32,501 nt of DNA, from assembly GCA_027592745.1 (NCBI GenBank), contig JAQCLG010000025.1, positions 1 to 32,501 on the forward strand, in the 5' to 3' direction. The notes below the pieces were generated by a model. It had not been told where the DNA came from. It worked only from the letters and a program-made list of their open reading frames with translations, and searched no databases. Both the position numbers and the translations under genes were made by a program. The DNA is from Pseudomonadota bacterium (GTDB taxonomy: Bacteria; Pseudomonadota; Alphaproteobacteria; SP197). Positions 24,318-30,946 of the stretch are shown here, in pieces. How positions within the stretch are numbered: the stretch's first letter is position 1; each line of letters begins with the position of its first letter.

Positions 24318-24881
24318 TCAGCGGTTGGCGCCGGGCGTCCAGAGCACGTCGGCCTTGCCGTTGTCGTTCATGCGCCGGGCCATGACGAAGAAGTGGTCCG
24401 ACAGCCGGTTGGCGTATTTCACCGCTTCCGGGTTGACTTCCTCGACCTCGGCCAGGCCCGTCATCATGCGTTCGGCGCGCCGGATCACGGTACGGGCCAG
24501 ATGCAGATGGGCCGCTGCCGGGCTGCCGCCGGGCAGGATGAAGGAGGTGAGCGGCGCGATCTGCGCATTCATCGCGTCGATCTCGGTCTCCAGGCGCCTG
24601 ACCTGCTCCTCGCTGATGCGCAGGGCGCCCTTGGCATGGCGCCCGTCGTGGGGCGTGCAGAGATCGGCGCCCAGATCGAAGAGGTCGTTCTGGATGCGCT
24701 CGAGCACCTTGTCGTCCTCGCCCGTGGTGTGCAGGCGGGCCATGCCGATCACGGCATTGGCCTCGTCGACCGTGCCGTAGGCGACGACCCGCAGGTCGTG
24801 CTTGGCGACGCGCCGGCCGTCGCCGAGCGAGGTTTCCCCGGCATCGCCGCCGCGGGTGTAGATCTTGTCGAGTTTCACCAT
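24318..24881 (-). CDS. Cob(I)alamin adenosyltransferase, PduO type
   Basis: This 187-residue enzyme transfers the adenosyl group of ATP to cob(I)alamin, making adenosylcobalamin. The ATP-binding N-terminus is KIYTRGGDAGETSLGDGRRVAKHD (about 6-29, fitting TRxGDxGxTxL). VDEANAVIG occurs at about 38-46, FILPGGSPAAAHLHLARTVIRRAER at about 112-136, and NRLSDHFFVMAR near the end (about 157-168). All belong to the PduO/MMAB family, not CobA or EutT. Length is normal. It starts four bases after the HIG1-like gene, so they form a two-gene operon. Its product would serve the B12-dependent ethylmalonyl-CoA mutase and ribonucleotide reductase in this window (inference). Confidence 0.93.
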   Translation of the reverse strand: MVKLDKIYTRGGDAGETSLGDGRRVAKHDLRVVAYGTVDEANAVIGMARLHTTGEDDKVLERIQNDLFDLGADLCTPHDGRHAKGALRISEEQVRRLETEIDAMNAQIAPLTSFILPGGSPAAAHLHLARTVIRRAERMMTGLAEVEEVNPEAVKYANRLSDHFFVMARRMNDNGKADVLWTPGANR

Positions 24882-24885
24882 GGTG

Positions 24886-25086
24886 TCAGCTCCGGCCGGC
24901 GAGGAAGAACATCAGCATCAGCAGCAGCACCGCGATGAGCTGCATGCCGACGCGGGCCTGCATCAGCTTGTTGCCCCACTTGCTGTTGAATTGGCCGCCC
25001 TTGACGAAGCCAGCCAGCCCCAGGAACAGGATGCCGAGCGTGAGCAGGGCGGCAATGACGACAAGGACGGGTAGCCAGCTGCTCAT
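24886..25086 (-). CDS. Small HIG1-like twin-transmembrane protein
   Basis: This 66-residue protein has two membrane helices (about 5-27 and 45-63) joined by GGQFNSKWGNKLMQARVG, which is the conserved loop of HIG_1_N-type proteins. Mitochondrial relatives associate with cytochrome oxidase supercomplexes. The bacterial role is not settled. I chose ATG 25086 (MSSWLPVLV), because a longer reading adds a hydrophilic, proline-rich tail unlike the family. It is followed after four bases by the adenosyltransferase gene, a pairing seen often in Alphaproteobacteria. Confidence 0.82.
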   Translation of the reverse strand: MSSWLPVLVVIAALLTLGILFLGLAGFVKGGQFNSKWGNKLMQARVGMQLIAVLLLMLMFFLAGRS

Positions 25087-25168
25087 GGGTCGCTCCGGTA
25101 GCCGCCGCGTGGCGTGGCGGGCAGGGGTTGAGATCGGTTGCCGCAGGCGCGGCGGCAAGGGGTGAGCG

Positions 25169-25602: not shown

Positions 25603-26196
25603 TCAACCACCCGCGCACGTCCGGTCGGCCAGGCGATCCAGCAGGGGCCGGTAATGGCCGAAACCGGGCACATCCGCCCCGACCGTCTTGCCCGCGTCGT
25701 CCCAGCGGCGCAGGCGGCAGGCATCGCCACTGAACGGCAGGGCGGCAAAGGCCGCCGCCTCGTCGCGGCCCATGATGCCGCCCTGCAGCGCCATGGTGTG
25801 GATCGAGGCCGCCGACAGCCTGGCCCGGTATTCCGGCTCGACGGCGCAGAGGTAACGCTTGGCATCGACATGCAGGCGGATCGGCGCCACCGCCGCCTGG
25901 GGCAGCAGGGCCGCCAGCGCCCGCCCGGCGGCGACATCATGGCGCCTGTCCGGTCGTATCTCGTTCTCGTTGTCGGGCGCGGCATCGAGGTAGTAGCCGA
26001 TGTCGTGCAGCAGGGCCGCGGCAACCAGCGCATCGGGCGCACCTTCGGCCTGCGCCAGGGCAGCGCACTGCAGCATGTGGTCGCCGATCGTGACGTTCTC
26101 GCCGAGGTAGCTCTCGCGCACGATGACGGCAAAGAGGCTCTCCAGCCGGTCGACCAGGTTGTCGCGCGTGAGGCCGGCCAGCAGGGGCTTGCTCAC
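25603..26196 (-). CDS. tmpB: HD-domain mixed-valent diiron oxygenase, TmpB/PhnZ-like
   Basis: This 197-residue protein has an HD-domain pattern like PhnZ and TmpB, which cleave the C-P bond of 2-hydroxy-phosphonates with a mixed-valent diiron centre rather than hydrolysing phosphate. I see Y30 and E33 (a YxxE loop as in PhnZ), H40 in IGDHMLQCA, H64-D65 in ALLHDIGYYL, H86, H109 and D167 in RRWDDAGK, which matches the final ligand region. TmpB acts on (R)-2-(trimethylammonio)-1-hydroxyethylphosphonate, giving glycine betaine and phosphate. The start is GTG 26196, overlapping the TGA of the dioxygenase gene by four bases. It would be easy to misannotate as a phosphohydrolase. PhnZ-type activity on an aminoethyl substrate is the main alternative. 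Confidence 0.72.
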   Translation of the reverse strand: MSKPLLAGLTRDNLVDRLESLFAVIVRESYLGENVTIGDHMLQCAALAQAEGAPDALVAAALLHDIGYYLDAAPDNENEIRPDRRHDVAAGRALAALLPQAAVAPIRLHVDAKRYLCAVEPEYRARLSAASIHTMALQGGIMGRDEAAAFAALPFSGDACRLRRWDDAGKTVGADVPGFGHYRPLLDRLADRTCAGG

Positions 26197-27320
26197 GCGT
26201 CCCGCTCCAGCAGGGAGAGGGTGGAACGCAGGCCGTCCATGTCGGCGTAGCAGCCCTGCAGGTGGCGCCAGCCGGAGGCGGCGATGGCGCGGCGGCCGTG
26301 CAGGACGCGGCGGTTATCGACGATGAAGAGTTCGCCCGGTGCCAGCCTGAACGCCACTTCCAGGGCCGGGCGGCGCAGGATCTCGGCAAAGCGGCGATAG
26401 GCGGCGTAGAACGCACCCATGACCGCGACGTCGAGATCGAAGGCGGCGATCGAGCGGTTGTTGAAGCGGATCTCGGCGACCTCGCCGCGGTCGTCCAGGG
26501 TGATCAGGCGGGCGCGTGCCTCGAGCACGGCATCGGCGCTGGCGAAACGGAAGGGTACGGCGTGGCGCGTCAGCAGGTCGAAATCGCTCCCCGATTCGGC
26601 GGCCAGCATCTGGGCGGCGCGGAAGCCGTCGACCACCACCGATTCGCCGCCGTCGCTTTCGGCCACCAGGCAGTGCAGCAGCTGCAGACCGGGCACGGGA
26701 TCGCGGTACGGGTTGTCGGTATGCACCGACAGCCCCATGGGCGTGTAGGCCAGGTTGATCGGATCGGGTTCGCTGCGGACCTCGAAGAAACGGCCGTAGT
26801 TGGTCTCGCGGACATGGCCGAAGAGTTCGGCGACCCCCAGCAGCGCACCCGATTCCACGGGCACGCCGCGCAGCAGGGCAAAGCCCAGTTCGGCGATGTC
26901 GGCGAGCCAGGCGCGCCGCGCCGCGGCATCGCTGACCACCGCCACGTGTTCGTGGGCCGGCAGGTTGCGCCCCAGGTCGGCGCCCCAGAGCCGCCGCGGC
27001 GGGACGCGCCGGGGCAGCGCGTGGCGATGCAGCCAGGCGCCCTCGAACTCCACCTCGTGACCGTCCGAGAAGGTCATCGCGACCCGCCCGCCCTGCGCCG
27101 CGGCGGCGACGATGTGGATCGTCGGGTCGATGTCGGTGATGTCGAACAGCTTCTGGCCGTTGGCGTGGCGCGCGCCCGGCGCCGGCGAATTGTCGCGCAG
27201 CCAGATCGCCGGCAGTTCGGCGGTGGCGCCGTCGCTCCAGGCCAGCGCCAGGCTCGCCGCGCGGTTCTGCACCGCCAGCAGCAGGGCGGCATCGCGCAGG
27301 GAGCGGGCGGGAGCGGGCAT
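26193..27320 (-). CDS. tmpA: 2-oxoglutarate/Fe(II) dioxygenase, TmpA-like (gamma-butyrobetaine-hydroxylase family)
   Basis: This protein of about 375 residues has an N-terminal GBBH-type domain (about 20-105) and a C-terminal TauD-type jelly roll. Iron ligands fit H200, D202 (VHTDNP) and H341 (VLHGRR). R352 likely binds 2-oxoglutarate. Against human BBOX1 (recalled), Y175, F179, Y192 and Y358 take the places of the trimethylammonium-binding aromatics, which suggests a quaternary-ammonium substrate. Its coupled HD-oxygenase neighbour makes 2-(trimethylammonio)ethylphosphonate the best guess, hydroxylated at C1. The usual zinc cysteines of the N-terminal domain are replaced: RDNSPAPGARH has S45, A47 and A50 where CxCxxC is expected. 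H88 is retained. ATG 27320 and ATG 27332 are both possible starts; I prefer 27320 by the GGAA spacing. Gamma-butyrobetaine hydroxylase is the alternative. Confidence 0.75.
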   Translation of the reverse strand: MPAPARSLRDAALLLAVQNRAASLALAWSDGATAELPAIWLRDNSPAPGARHANGQKLFDITDIDPTIHIVAAAAQGGRVAMTFSDGHEVEFEGAWLHRHALPRRVPPRRLWGADLGRNLPAHEHVAVVSDAAARRAWLADIAELGFALLRGVPVESGALLGVAELFGHVRETNYGRFFEVRSEPDPINLAYTPMGLSVHTDNPYRDPVPGLQLLHCLVAESDGGESVVVDGFRAAQMLAAESGSDFDLLTRHAVPFRFASADAVLEARARLITLDDRGEVAEIRFNNRSIAAFDLDVAVMGAFYAAYRRFAEILRRPALEVAFRLAPGELFIVDNRRVLHGRRAIAASGWRHLQGCYADMDGLRSTLSLLERDA

Positions 27321-27451
27321 GCAACGTTCCATCGCTATGGCGCCGCCATTGTCGCGCCGTCGGGGCACGTTCACAATCGGTCTGGCTGGTGCGCCGCGCG
27401 CCGGCTGGTGCATCATGCGGAGCGCCGCGACGAAGGAAACCCGACGCAGCC

Positions 27452-27928
27452 ATGGCGACCGATCCGGACTACCGCACCACCCTGCTTGCCTGCTTCGAGG
27501 ACGAAATCGGCGGCGAAGCCTATTTCCACGGCATGGCCGAACATTTCGACGAGCCGGGCGCGGCCGAAAAGCTGCACCTGATGGGCGAGGTCGAACGCTG
27601 CGCCGCCGAGACCGTGCGTCCGCTTCTGGAGCGCCACGGCCTGAAGCCCCGCGCGGAAGAAACCCTGCATGCACAAGGCAAGACCTCCATCGCCCGCCGT
27701 GCCGGCATGTCCTGGACCGCCCTGGTCGACGACATGGCCGCGCGTTACCCCGCCTACATCGACGACTTCCGCGCCCTGGAGGCCATGGCGCCCGAGGAAG
27801 ACCTGCCGGCGCTGCGCCTGCTGACCGAACACGAGGCCGTCCTGATCGCCTTCGTCGAGCGCGAGAAGGCCGGCGATGCGACCGCCGCCGACCCGATGCG
27901 CACCTACATCGCCTCCTGCCGGGGCTGA
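27452..27928 (+). CDS. Ferritin-like helical protein, possible metal-binding
   Basis: This 158-residue, nearly all-helical acidic protein may form a four-helix ferritin-like bundle. E16-D17-E18 and E22 are followed by E46, E48 and E53 in MGEVERCAAE, and late E126-H127-E128 with E136 in LLTEHEAVLIAFVEREK. The spacing of glutamates and histidine is reminiscent of rubrerythrin or ferritin-like diiron proteins, but I cannot assign a named family. ATG 27452 is supported by AAGGAAA about 13 bases upstream. It is divergent from tmpA, sharing a 131-base region, and convergent with mcd, 21 bases away. Placement beside two iron enzymes makes an iron or redox-related role an appealing guess only. Confidence 0.6.
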   Translation: MATDPDYRTTLLACFEDEIGGEAYFHGMAEHFDEPGAAEKLHLMGEVERCAAETVRPLLERHGLKPRAEETLHAQGKTSIARRAGMSWTALVDDMAARYPAYIDDFRALEAMAPEEDLPALRLLTEHEAVLIAFVEREKAGDATAADPMRTYIASCRG

Positions 27929-27949: not shown

Positions 27950-29611
27950 TCAGTTCGCGTCGGCGAGCAGGCGGCGGGCGATGACCTGGGCCTGGATCTC
28001 GGCAGCGCCCTCGAAGATGTTGAGGATGCGGGCGTCGCACAAGACGCGGCTGATCTCGTATTCCATGGCGTAGCCGTTGCCGCCGTGAATCTGCAGGGCG
28101 TTGTCGGCCGCGGCCCAGGCGATGCGCGCGCCCAGCAGCTTGGCCATGCCGGCCTCGAGGTCGCAGCGCCGCCCGGCGTCCTTCTCGCGTGCGGAGAACC
28201 AGACAAGCTGGCGCGCGACCATGGTCTCGACCGCCATCCAGGCGAGCTTGTTGGCCACGCGCGGGAAGCCGACGATGGCGCGACCGAACTGGTTGCGCTC
28301 GCGGGCGTAGGCAAGGCCCAGCTCGAAGGCGGCCTGGGCGACGCCCACGGCGCGGGCGCCGGTCTGGATGCGCGCCGATTCGAAGGTCGCCATGAGCTGC
28401 TTGAAGCCCTGGCCTTCCTTGCCGCCCAGCAGGTTGTCGGCCCTGACCTCGAAGCCGTCGAAGCCCAGCTCGTATTCCTTCATGCCGCGGTAACCCAGGA
28501 CGCCGATCTCGCCGCCCGACATGCCCTTGGCGGGGAACGCCTCGTTTTCGGTGGCGCGCGGCTTTTCGGCCAGGAACATGGAGAGGCCGCGGTAGCCCTT
28601 CTCGTCCGGGTCGGTGCGCGCCAGCAGGGTCATCACGTCGGCGCGGGCGGCATGGGTGATCCAGGTCTTGTTGCCGGTGATGCGATAGACGTCGCCGTCC
28701 TTTTCCGCCCGCGTCTTCAGGCTGCCCAGATCCGAGCCGGTGCCCGGTTCGGTGAAGACGGCGGTCGGGATGATCGCACCCGAGACGATGCCCGGCAGCC
28801 AGCGCGCCTTCTGCTCGTCCGTACCGCCGCTCAGGATCAGCTCGGCGGCGATCTCCGTGCGCGTACCCAGCGAACCGACGCCCAGATAACCGCGCGAAAG
28901 CTCCTCGGTGACCACGCACATGGCGACCTTGCTCATGCCCAGCCCCCCGTGCTCCTCGGGCACGGTCAGGCCGAAGACGCCGAGTTCGCCCAGCTCCTCG
29001 AGCACCTCCATGGGGATGAACTCATCGCGCAGGTGCCAGCCGTGGGCATGGGGCTTGATGCGCTCGTCGGCGTAGCGGCGGAACTGGTCGCGGACCATGA
29101 CGAGGTCCTCGTCGAGCCCGGTCTGGCCGAAACCGCCGGAGTCGGCATTCTCCTCCAGCAGGTAGGCAAGGCGCGCCCAGACGATGTCGGCGCTGCCCGC
29201 CAGGATCAGGCGGCGCACCTCGCGCGTGCGGAAATGCTCGACATCCTCCTCGGCGATGTCGAGGTCGTGCGGGCGCACGATCTCGACCTGGCTCATCGGG
29301 ATGCCGCCGGCGAGCTGGGCCAGGTACTCGGCATAGGCAAGCTGCAGGATGAGCTGTTCGGTCTGGCCGAAACGACCGGCCTCCTGCAGCGCACGGGCCC
29401 AGCGCAGCATCTGGCGCAGCGCCTCGACATAGGTCGCCATCCAGGCCAGGCCGTGGGCGGCGTTCTGGTTGCGGTCGAGCCGCTCCAGGTCGAGCCCGTG
29501 CTCGGGATCGAAGACCTTGGCGCGCACGCCGCGGCGGGCCGCGCCATACAGCGTCTCGGCGGCCTTCAGCGCGCCATCGCAAAGCTCCAGCAGGTCGTCG
29601 AGAACGGCCAT
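27950..29611 (-). CDS. mcd: Methylsuccinyl-CoA dehydrogenase (acyl-CoA dehydrogenase family)
   Basis: This 553-residue FAD enzyme oxidises (2S)-methylsuccinyl-CoA to mesaconyl-CoA in the ethylmalonyl-CoA pathway. It has the acyl-CoA dehydrogenase core (about 165-550) plus an N-terminal helical extension of about 165 residues, which distinguishes Mcd from ordinary 380-residue members. AVFTEPGTGSDLGSLKTRA is the flavin/substrate signature (about 282-300), and TGNKTWITHAARAD follows. Near the end LQIHGGNGYAMEYEISRVL and IFEGAAEI carry the expected catalytic glutamate, E534. It follows ccr by 51 bases on the same strand and faces ecm beyond that. Context plus the extension makes Mcd much likelier than a generic acyl-CoA dehydrogenase. 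Electrons should go to EtfAB. Confidence 0.9.
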   Translation of the reverse strand: MAVLDDLLELCDGALKAAETLYGAARRGVRAKVFDPEHGLDLERLDRNQNAAHGLAWMATYVEALRQMLRWARALQEAGRFGQTEQLILQLAYAEYLAQLAGGIPMSQVEIVRPHDLDIAEEDVEHFRTREVRRLILAGSADIVWARLAYLLEENADSGGFGQTGLDEDLVMVRDQFRRYADERIKPHAHGWHLRDEFIPMEVLEELGELGVFGLTVPEEHGGLGMSKVAMCVVTEELSRGYLGVGSLGTRTEIAAELILSGGTDEQKARWLPGIVSGAIIPTAVFTEPGTGSDLGSLKTRAEKDGDVYRITGNKTWITHAARADVMTLLARTDPDEKGYRGLSMFLAEKPRATENEAFPAKGMSGGEIGVLGYRGMKEYELGFDGFEVRADNLLGGKEGQGFKQLMATFESARIQTGARAVGVAQAAFELGLAYARERNQFGRAIVGFPRVANKLAWMAVETMVARQLVWFSAREKDAGRRCDLEAGMAKLLGARIAWAAADNALQIHGGNGYAMEYEISRVLCDARILNIFEGAAEIQAQVIARRLLADAN

Positions 29612-29662: not shown

Positions 29663-30946
29663 TCAGCCCTCGAGCACATCCTCCAGCGTCCGCAGGCCCG
29701 GGCGGGGCGAGCTGACGAGCACGGCCATGTTGCCGGGCTTGTGCTGGTTGGCCCGCATCTTCATGTGGGCGCGCGGGATGTCGTTCCAGGAGAAGACTTC
29801 CGACATGCAGGGGTCGATGCGCCGCTCGATGACCAGCTTGTTGGCCTGGCTCGCCTGCATCAGGTTGGCGAAATGGCTGCCCTGGATGCGCTTCTGGCGC
29901 ATCCACACGAAACGCGCGTCGAAGGTGATGTTGTAGCCGGTGGTTCCGGCGCAGAACACGACCATGCCGCCGCGCTTCACGATGAAGCAGGAGACCGGGA
30001 AGGTCGATTCGCCGGGGTGCTCGAAGACGAAGTCGACGTCGTTGCCCTTGCCGGTGAACTGCCAGATCGCCTTGCCGAACTCGCGGCACTTCTTCATGTA
30101 GGCGGCGTAACCCTCGGTGTCGGAGACCTCCGGCAGGCGGCCCCAGCAATCGAAGTTGTTGCGGTTGATGACGCCCTTGGCGCCCAGCGACATCACGAAC
30201 TCGGCCTTGTCGTCGTCGCTGATGATGCCGATCGCATTGGCGCCGGCCGTCGCGATGAGCTGCACGGCAAAGGAGCCCAGGCCGCCCGAGGCGCCCCAGA
30301 CCAGCACGTTGTGACCGGGCCGCAGGATGTGCGGGCGGTGGCCGAAGAGCATGCGGTAGGCGGTCGCCAGGGTCAGCGTGTAGCAGGCCGCCTCCTCCCA
30401 GGTCAGGTGGCGCGGGCGCGGCATGAGCTGCTGGGCCTGGACGCGGCAGAACTGGGCGAAGCTGCCGTCCGGCGTCTCGTAGCCCCAGATGCGCTGGCTG
30501 GTCGAGAACATCGGGTCGCCGCCGTTGCACTCCTCGTCGTCGCCGTCGTCCTGGTTGCAGTGGATGACGACCTCGTCGCCGACCTTCCAGCGCGTCACCT
30601 TCGAGCCGACCGCCCAGACGATGCCCGAGGCATCCGAGCCGGCGATGTGGAAATCGGCCTTGTGCACGTCGAACGGGCTGATCGGGATGCCGAGCGAGGC
30701 CCAGACACCGTTGTAGTTGACGCCCGCGGCCATCACGAGGACGAGCACCTCGTGGCTGTCGATCTTGTGGGTGGGCACCGCCTCGACCTGCATGGCCGTG
30801 TCCGGCTCGCCGTGACGCTCGCGCCGGATCGTCCAAGCATACATTTTCTCGGGCACATGGCCCATGGGCGGAATCTCGCCGATCTCGTAGAGATCCTTCT
30901 TCGGCGCGTCGTAATTGCTCGGTAGTGCCTCGGCTGGCTGGGCCAT
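29663..30946 (-). CDS. ccr: Crotonyl-CoA carboxylase/reductase
   Basis: This 427-residue enzyme of the zinc-free medium-chain dehydrogenase family uses NADPH to reductively carboxylate crotonyl-CoA to (2S)-ethylmalonyl-CoA, the key step of the ethylmalonyl-CoA pathway. The N-terminus MYAWTIRRERHGEP and the NYNGVWASLG stretch (77-86) are followed by the nucleotide-binding loop VWGASGGLGSFAVQL (216-230). GSHFANLMQA (356-365) carries H358, likely the CO2-pocket histidine. The asparagine in NYNGVW (N79 or N77) is likely another pocket residue (family knowledge). Length matches the 430-residue family. AGGAGACG sits nine bases before ATG 30946. It is the first gene of the ccr-mcd set and divergent from ecm across a 159-base region with candidate operators. 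Confidence 0.95.
   Translation of the reverse strand: MAQPAEALPSNYDAPKKDLYEIGEIPPMGHVPEKMYAWTIRRERHGEPDTAMQVEAVPTHKIDSHEVLVLVMAAGVNYNGVWASLGIPISPFDVHKADFHIAGSDASGIVWAVGSKVTRWKVGDEVVIHCNQDDGDDEECNGGDPMFSTSQRIWGYETPDGSFAQFCRVQAQQLMPRPRHLTWEEAACYTLTLATAYRMLFGHRPHILRPGHNVLVWGASGGLGSFAVQLIATAGANAIGIISDDDKAEFVMSLGAKGVINRNNFDCWGRLPEVSDTEGYAAYMKKCREFGKAIWQFTGKGNDVDFVFEHPGESTFPVSCFIVKRGGMVVFCAGTTGYNITFDARFVWMRQKRIQGSHFANLMQASQANKLVIERRIDPCMSEVFSWNDIPRAHMKMRANQHKPGNMAVLVSSPRPGLRTLEDVLEG

Follow-up and report, generated by a model that had tools for sequence, protein, structure and literature searches.

The window, by which we mean the whole stretch of 32,501 nucleotides that was analysed, carries on its reverse strand two overlapping genes that, with a probability we put at about 0.7, form a TmpA/TmpB pathway cleaving 2-(trimethylammonio)ethylphosphonate, the chemistry and the substrate being what we infer for them. 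This pathway is already known (PMC10574752) and the novelty of the pair is a lineage-specific variant of TmpB without the fifth histidine. An initial annotation of this DNA had proposed a TmpA/TmpB pair acting on this phosphonate; the type of pair stands, according to profile scores, tree, residues and fold, but the HD-domain protein is not a plain TmpB. On this reading, a small and recently found route of phosphorus recycling from methylated phosphonates would reach another alphaproteobacterial order, where core acyl-CoA genes flank the fixed slot of the pair, and the lineage would offer a natural experiment on the fifth histidine, the literature marker of the enzyme class. As this histidine is replaced in a whole lineage under purifying selection, either rules demanding it miss true oxygenases or the function of the lineage differs. 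The features of the pair are as follows.

25603 to 26196, reverse strand: HD-domain diiron oxygenase of TmpB/PhnZ type, 197 amino acids, GTG start (6npa match, Foldseek).
26193 to 27320, reverse strand: TmpA-like 2-oxoglutarate dioxygenase, 375 amino acids (NF049936 score, 6npb match, tree).
26193 to 26196, reverse strand: GTGA stop/start overlap of the two genes (sequence).

According to the mechanism that we propose, TmpA, an Fe(II)/2-oxoglutarate enzyme, would hold the quaternary ammonium group of 2-(trimethylammonio)ethylphosphonate in a cage of Tyr and Phe and its phosphonate group by N, N and R, and would hydroxylate this substrate at C1. The resulting product would be bound by the mixed-valent diiron site of the co-translated HD enzyme, where Tyr30 would leave the iron and Glu33 would swing in, and with O2 the C-P bond would be split to give glycine betaine and phosphate.

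Both reading frames are intact, and an in-frame ATG at 27332 would make the dioxygenase 4 amino acids longer. At the overlap the forward strand reads TCAC, TGA being the stop of the dioxygenase and GTG the start of the HD gene. The pairing was surveyed in the genome of origin, searched family by family, and in 60 relatives. Fifteen genomes encode a dioxygenase above the TmpA cut-off and in all 15 the HD gene lies directly 3' of it, which indicates a coupling beyond chance and not an accident of one genome; the genes mostly overlap or are separated by at most about 60 bases, with the exception of G004 (435 bases), and seven of the eight pairs of the clade with Tyr68 (see below) are closely coupled. 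Fusions of a TmpA-like with an HD protein occur in the relative G003 (L157:6889-8580), in two Kitasatospora, in Streptomyces tateyamensis and in one gammaproteobacterium (the others at L073, L109, L110 and L074), a one-protein design comparable to the fungal PhnY-PhnZ fusion PhoF (PMC10574752). The translational coupling that the initial annotation had read from GTGA is therefore not only seen in the sequence but also backed by the pairing and the fusions. A comparison with a genome of the same genus gave dN/dS values of 0.16 (dioxygenase) and 0.18 (HD protein), from which we conclude that both genes are constrained.

The dioxygenase, composed of a GBBH-like N-terminal domain and a TauD domain, is well supported by its sequence as a probable TmpA. 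It scores 438 bits with NF049936, the NCBIfam equivalog model of TmpA (cut-off 400), and 361 bits with TIGR02409, the gamma-butyrobetaine hydroxylase (BBOX) model (cut-off 415, failed); the trimethyllysine dioxygenase model is also failed and the TmpA model is the only one in NCBIfam that it passes. In the PDB, its match to TmpA (6npb) has an E-value of 4e-94 and that to human BBOX one of 2.5e-50. A phylogeny had been suggested initially as a check, and in the maximum-likelihood tree the dioxygenase indeed groups with TmpA: its clade is sister to that of 6npb (88/91), both belong to a larger starred clade (52 rows, 95/83), in which 50 rows are paired with an HD gene, and two BBOX-like paralogues of the same genome fall outside it. 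These paralogues (C143:1623-2675 and C172:3644-4744 of G000) are unpaired and reach the cut-off of neither BBOX nor TmpA. The initial expectation that both genes would be misannotated is out of date for the dioxygenase, since an NCBIfam equivalog model for TmpA exists and is passed; the HD gene alone would get a vague name, since it falls below every curated cut-off, that of Pfam HD included.

In TmpA, N187, N287 and R288 hold the phosphonate, and human BBOX has the two Asn (PMC9296572). The corresponding codons in the window, assigned by alignment, with roles from the same source (PMC9296572), are as follows.

26754 to 26756, reverse strand: Asn codon equivalent to TmpA N187 (P0001 residue 193).
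26454 to 26459, reverse strand: Asn-Arg codons equivalent to TmpA N287-R288 (P0001 residues 292-293).

The three equivalents are N, N and R in the window protein and in 9/9 rows of its clade, and D/P/R and V/D/R in the two paralogues. We rejected R288 by itself as a mark of TmpA, as an Arg is common to 12 of 15 unpaired BBOX-like bacterial proteins, both paralogues included, and is thus not specific. The aromatic cage noted initially is present as in TmpA (Y179, F183, Y196 and Y362 in P0001 numbering), its counterparts in human BBOX being Y177, W181, Y194 and Y366. The window protein shares with BBOX the GBBH-like N-terminal domain, the TauD fold, the aromatic cage and the two Asn; by contrast, human BBOX has an Ala at TmpA R288, and the window protein falls with TmpA both by profile score and in the tree. 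Twenty-four columns are specific to its class within TmpA, among them S202, two residues ahead of the iron ligand H204.

As regards the HD protein, sequence and structure model suggest that it is a diiron oxygenase of PhnZ/TmpB type. Across an alignment of 100 sequences, the iron ligands H40, H64-D65, H86, H109 and D166 are all kept. Of the ligands named by the initial annotation, Y30, E33, H40, H64-D65, H86 and H109 hold, but D167 must be replaced by D166: column 166 is D in 100/100 sequences and column 167 is D or E. Y30 and E33 form the YxxE loop, described as substrate-gated for PhnZ and TmpB (PMC8177086), and K113, R114, S128, S131, Q138, R163 and K170 are kept as well. The best PDB matches are TmpB (6npa, E 6e-40) and PhnZ (E 5e-23). 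The structure model (mean pLDDT 90.6) has 6npa as its top Foldseek match, and at E < 0.001 the fold search returned TmpB and PhnZ only. The profile scores all fall below their cut-offs, with 188 bits for NF049941, the NCBIfam equivalog of TmpB (cut-off 300), a slightly higher 192.2 for the Phn-HD model TIGR03276 (cut-off 214.6) and 21.4 for Pfam HD (cut-off 22); 12 of the 15 HD partners of TmpA proteins above their own cut-off likewise fall below that of NF049941. A tree built from 100 HD proteins gives firm support (100/99) to the clade of the window, with eight members, and no starred placement of it relative to TmpB was obtained; constraining it with the TmpB clade was not rejected (AU p 0.487). 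On the strength of its sequence we consider this protein a probable divergent TmpB, which may or may not be sister to characterised TmpB.

TmpA and TmpB were characterised in Leisingera caerulea (PDB 6npb and 6npa; Rajakovich et al. 2019, as cited in PMC8177086). With that system the window pair shares the gene order, the TmpA contacts and cage, the iron ligands and YxxE loop of the HD protein and the fold. The window TmpA is 44-50% identical to the Leisingera-type rows of relatives and the HD protein 36-39% identical to 6npa, from which it differs by Tyr68 for His, Met135 for Leu and Asp111 for Ala; no LysR gene lies beside the window pair, whereas one is common to 12 of 31 surveyed loci. PhnY*/PhnZ, acting on 2-aminoethylphosphonate (PDB 4mlm and 4n71), has the same HD oxygenase fold and ligands, but PhnZ shows 32-33% identity in the fold search and scores lower than TmpB, and the dioxygenase partner belongs to a different branch. 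The Phn-HD proteins of TIGR03276 (PhnHD), one of which is encoded on another contig of the same genome (C171), belong to the same HD oxygenase family; the unpaired ones keep all five histidines and, in the DNA read, lack a partner resembling TmpA.

The substitution that sets the HD protein apart is the following.

25993 to 25995, reverse strand: TAC codon, Tyr68 replacing the fifth invariant His (HDIGH to HDIGY; alignment).

The initial annotation had named PhnZ-like ligands but had overlooked this Tyr at the near-invariant His after HDxG. In the 92 aligned homologues that do not belong to the clade, His is near-invariant at exactly five columns (40, 64, 68, 86 and 109), and the window protein has four of these five. 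Column 68 is Tyr in 8/8 pairs of the window clade, which all come from one family, and, outside it, His in 91/92 and Leu in 1/92; additional loci sampled in the order, the class and the phylum likewise carry HDxGH when they lie outside the clade, apart from one HDxGL already counted. This sole other exception is a paired TmpB with HDIGL (L144, G093). HDxGY as a general trait of TmpB was rejected, being found in no aligned sequence outside the window clade. By alignment column 68 is PhnZ H62, for which no role was found in the literature searched, and it presumably corresponds to MIOX Lys127, which contacts the substrate. Five invariant histidines are the mark of the TIGR03276 oxygenases, and the fifth points to a phosphonate oxygenase more strongly than the metal motif does (PMC11203657); from the count, this fifth histidine would be column 68. 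A second clade-specific change at a near-invariant HD column is L135 to Met; close to the K113 loop, all clade members have D111, which few other sequences share. We infer that the Tyr68 enzyme keeps its C-P-cleaving activity. It is possible, if rather doubtful, that the His to Tyr and second-shell changes make the HD enzyme of this clade a functionally distinct C-P oxygenase, with a new substrate range or another handling of the oxidised intermediate.

The surroundings of the pair were compared in 16 genomes of the order, all of one family. A row consisting of a crotonyl-CoA reductase-like gene, an acyl-CoA dehydrogenase, the slot, a cobalamin adenosyltransferase, ETF beta, ETF alpha and a 3-hydroxyacyl-CoA dehydrogenase is kept in 16/16 genomes as far as the contigs reach. 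In the window, the slot and its edges contain the following features.

24318 to 24881, reverse strand: cobalamin adenosyltransferase, slot edge (PF01923, synteny).
24886 to 25146: HIG1 protein, at the same slot edge.
27452 to 27928, forward strand: ferritin-like four-helix protein in the slot, divergent from the pair (AF2 fold, slot survey).
27950 to 29611, reverse strand: acyl-CoA dehydrogenase, other slot edge (Pfam, synteny).
29663 to 30946, reverse strand: zinc-type dehydrogenase, conserved neighbour, probably crotonyl-CoA reductase-like (Pfam ADH domains, synteny).

The ferritin-like protein (158 amino acids) has conserved E/H positions, a predicted ferritin/Dps fold (AF2 pLDDT 92.7) and no sequence match in Pfam or PDB; its gene is present in 8/10 slots with the pair or its remains and in 0/6 empty slots. 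In eight of these genomes the slot is occupied by an intact Tyr68 pair and in two (G006 and G009) by a decayed one, while in six it lacks a pair. All six genomes with an empty slot have another TmpA/HD pair elsewhere (four of Leisingera type, one fusion and one broken), and none of the genomes combines the Tyr68 slot pair with another, which fits the exchange of one function. According to the tree of flanking genes, however, this exchange took place in one or two independent events, at most two, and the decays came without a replacement pair, so the argument is given limited weight. The broken pairs, at L160 (G006) and L159 (G009), are syntenic, carry frameshifts or deletions and belong to two separate lineages, and assembly error is possible. 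In G002, a partial second HD fragment (L151, 10962-11150, reverse strand), 56% identical to the window HD protein, lies just upstream of TmpA, apparently, from its sequence, a remnant of duplication or exchange.

Counted against the TmpA/TmpB reading are the HD score below the TmpB cut-off, Tyr68, an HD tree without a supported position, the non-specific R288, the two unreplaced decays, the two swap events at most and the lack of any phosphonate gene beside the pair. An oxidative C-P-cleaving pair with a reshaped HD site and a related substrate (an N-methylated, N,N-dimethylated or longer-chain aminophosphonate) is improbable, though it deserves consideration: the substitutions H68Y and L135M, which affect near-invariant columns, D111 near the K113 loop and the class-specific TmpA columns, S202 included, would agree with it, whereas the cage and the phosphonate contacts of TmpA are unchanged and the characterised TmpA is highly substrate-specific (PMC10574752). 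The replacement of the window-type pair by other TmpA/HD pairs in sister genomes also speaks against a different substrate. We regard as very unlikely that TmpA hydroxylates the phosphonate next to an HD protein in which C-P cleavage is lost or weakened, or which catalyses a different reaction, even if column 68 lies at what we take to be the place of MIOX Lys127. The lost histidine, being the TIGR03276 oxygenase mark (PMC11203657), would support such a change, but the iron ligands and YxxE loop are kept, the dN/dS value and the close coupling of clade pairs oppose it, and a paired TmpB elsewhere has Leu at this position.

A gamma-butyrobetaine hydroxylase making carnitine beside an unrelated HD phosphohydrolase, the pair of functions that usual labels would give, is scarcely credible: the TIGR02409 match and the cage residues common to BBOX are outweighed by a score below that cut-off and above that of TmpA, the tree placement, the fixed HD partner and HD fold matches confined to TmpB and PhnZ. 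Scores, PDB match and tree led us to reject a true BBOX, and PDB and fold searches, which favour TmpB/PhnZ, led us to reject an HD hydrolase; profile scores, trees, residues and fold together exclude both, as the initial annotation had held. The reading with the least to recommend it is that the pair is decaying or cryptic and has no function at present, as only the broken pairs of G006 and G009 point that way, against intact frames and dN/dS values of a constrained pair in the window. The TmpA/TmpB reading is the one that we prefer.

No phosphonate gene island was found around the pair, whose neighbours are acyl-CoA, ETF and cobalamin genes. The initial statement that no phosphonate transporter or phn regulator lies in the window holds, and candidates for such genes are found in the same genome on contig C171. 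This contig encodes the C-P lyase component PhnJ (479 bits), binding proteins resembling PhnD (138 and 169 bits) and an unpaired Phn-HD protein whose TIGR03276 score of 210.4 bits is narrowly below the cut-off; by our reading it also carries a GntR-type gene and putative genes for PhnE-like permeases and for a DUF1045-like protein. Given the PhnD/PhnE-like genes, phosphonate import by the source organism is plausible, and the region (L164, G000), with both C-P lyase and Phn-HD, implies more than one route to phosphonate phosphorus. A choline-sulfatase in the slot of G002 (TIGR03417, 594 bits, cut-off 433), with homologues in G004 and G007, provides a quaternary-amine context that fits the TmpA/TmpB reading and was counted for it. 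In sister genomes G008, G010 and G014 (L161, L162 and L163), the Leisingera-type pair is surrounded by genes for a class III aminotransferase, a second TauD dioxygenase, isochorismatase-family and NIPSNAP proteins, a TPP enzyme and an EamA transporter.
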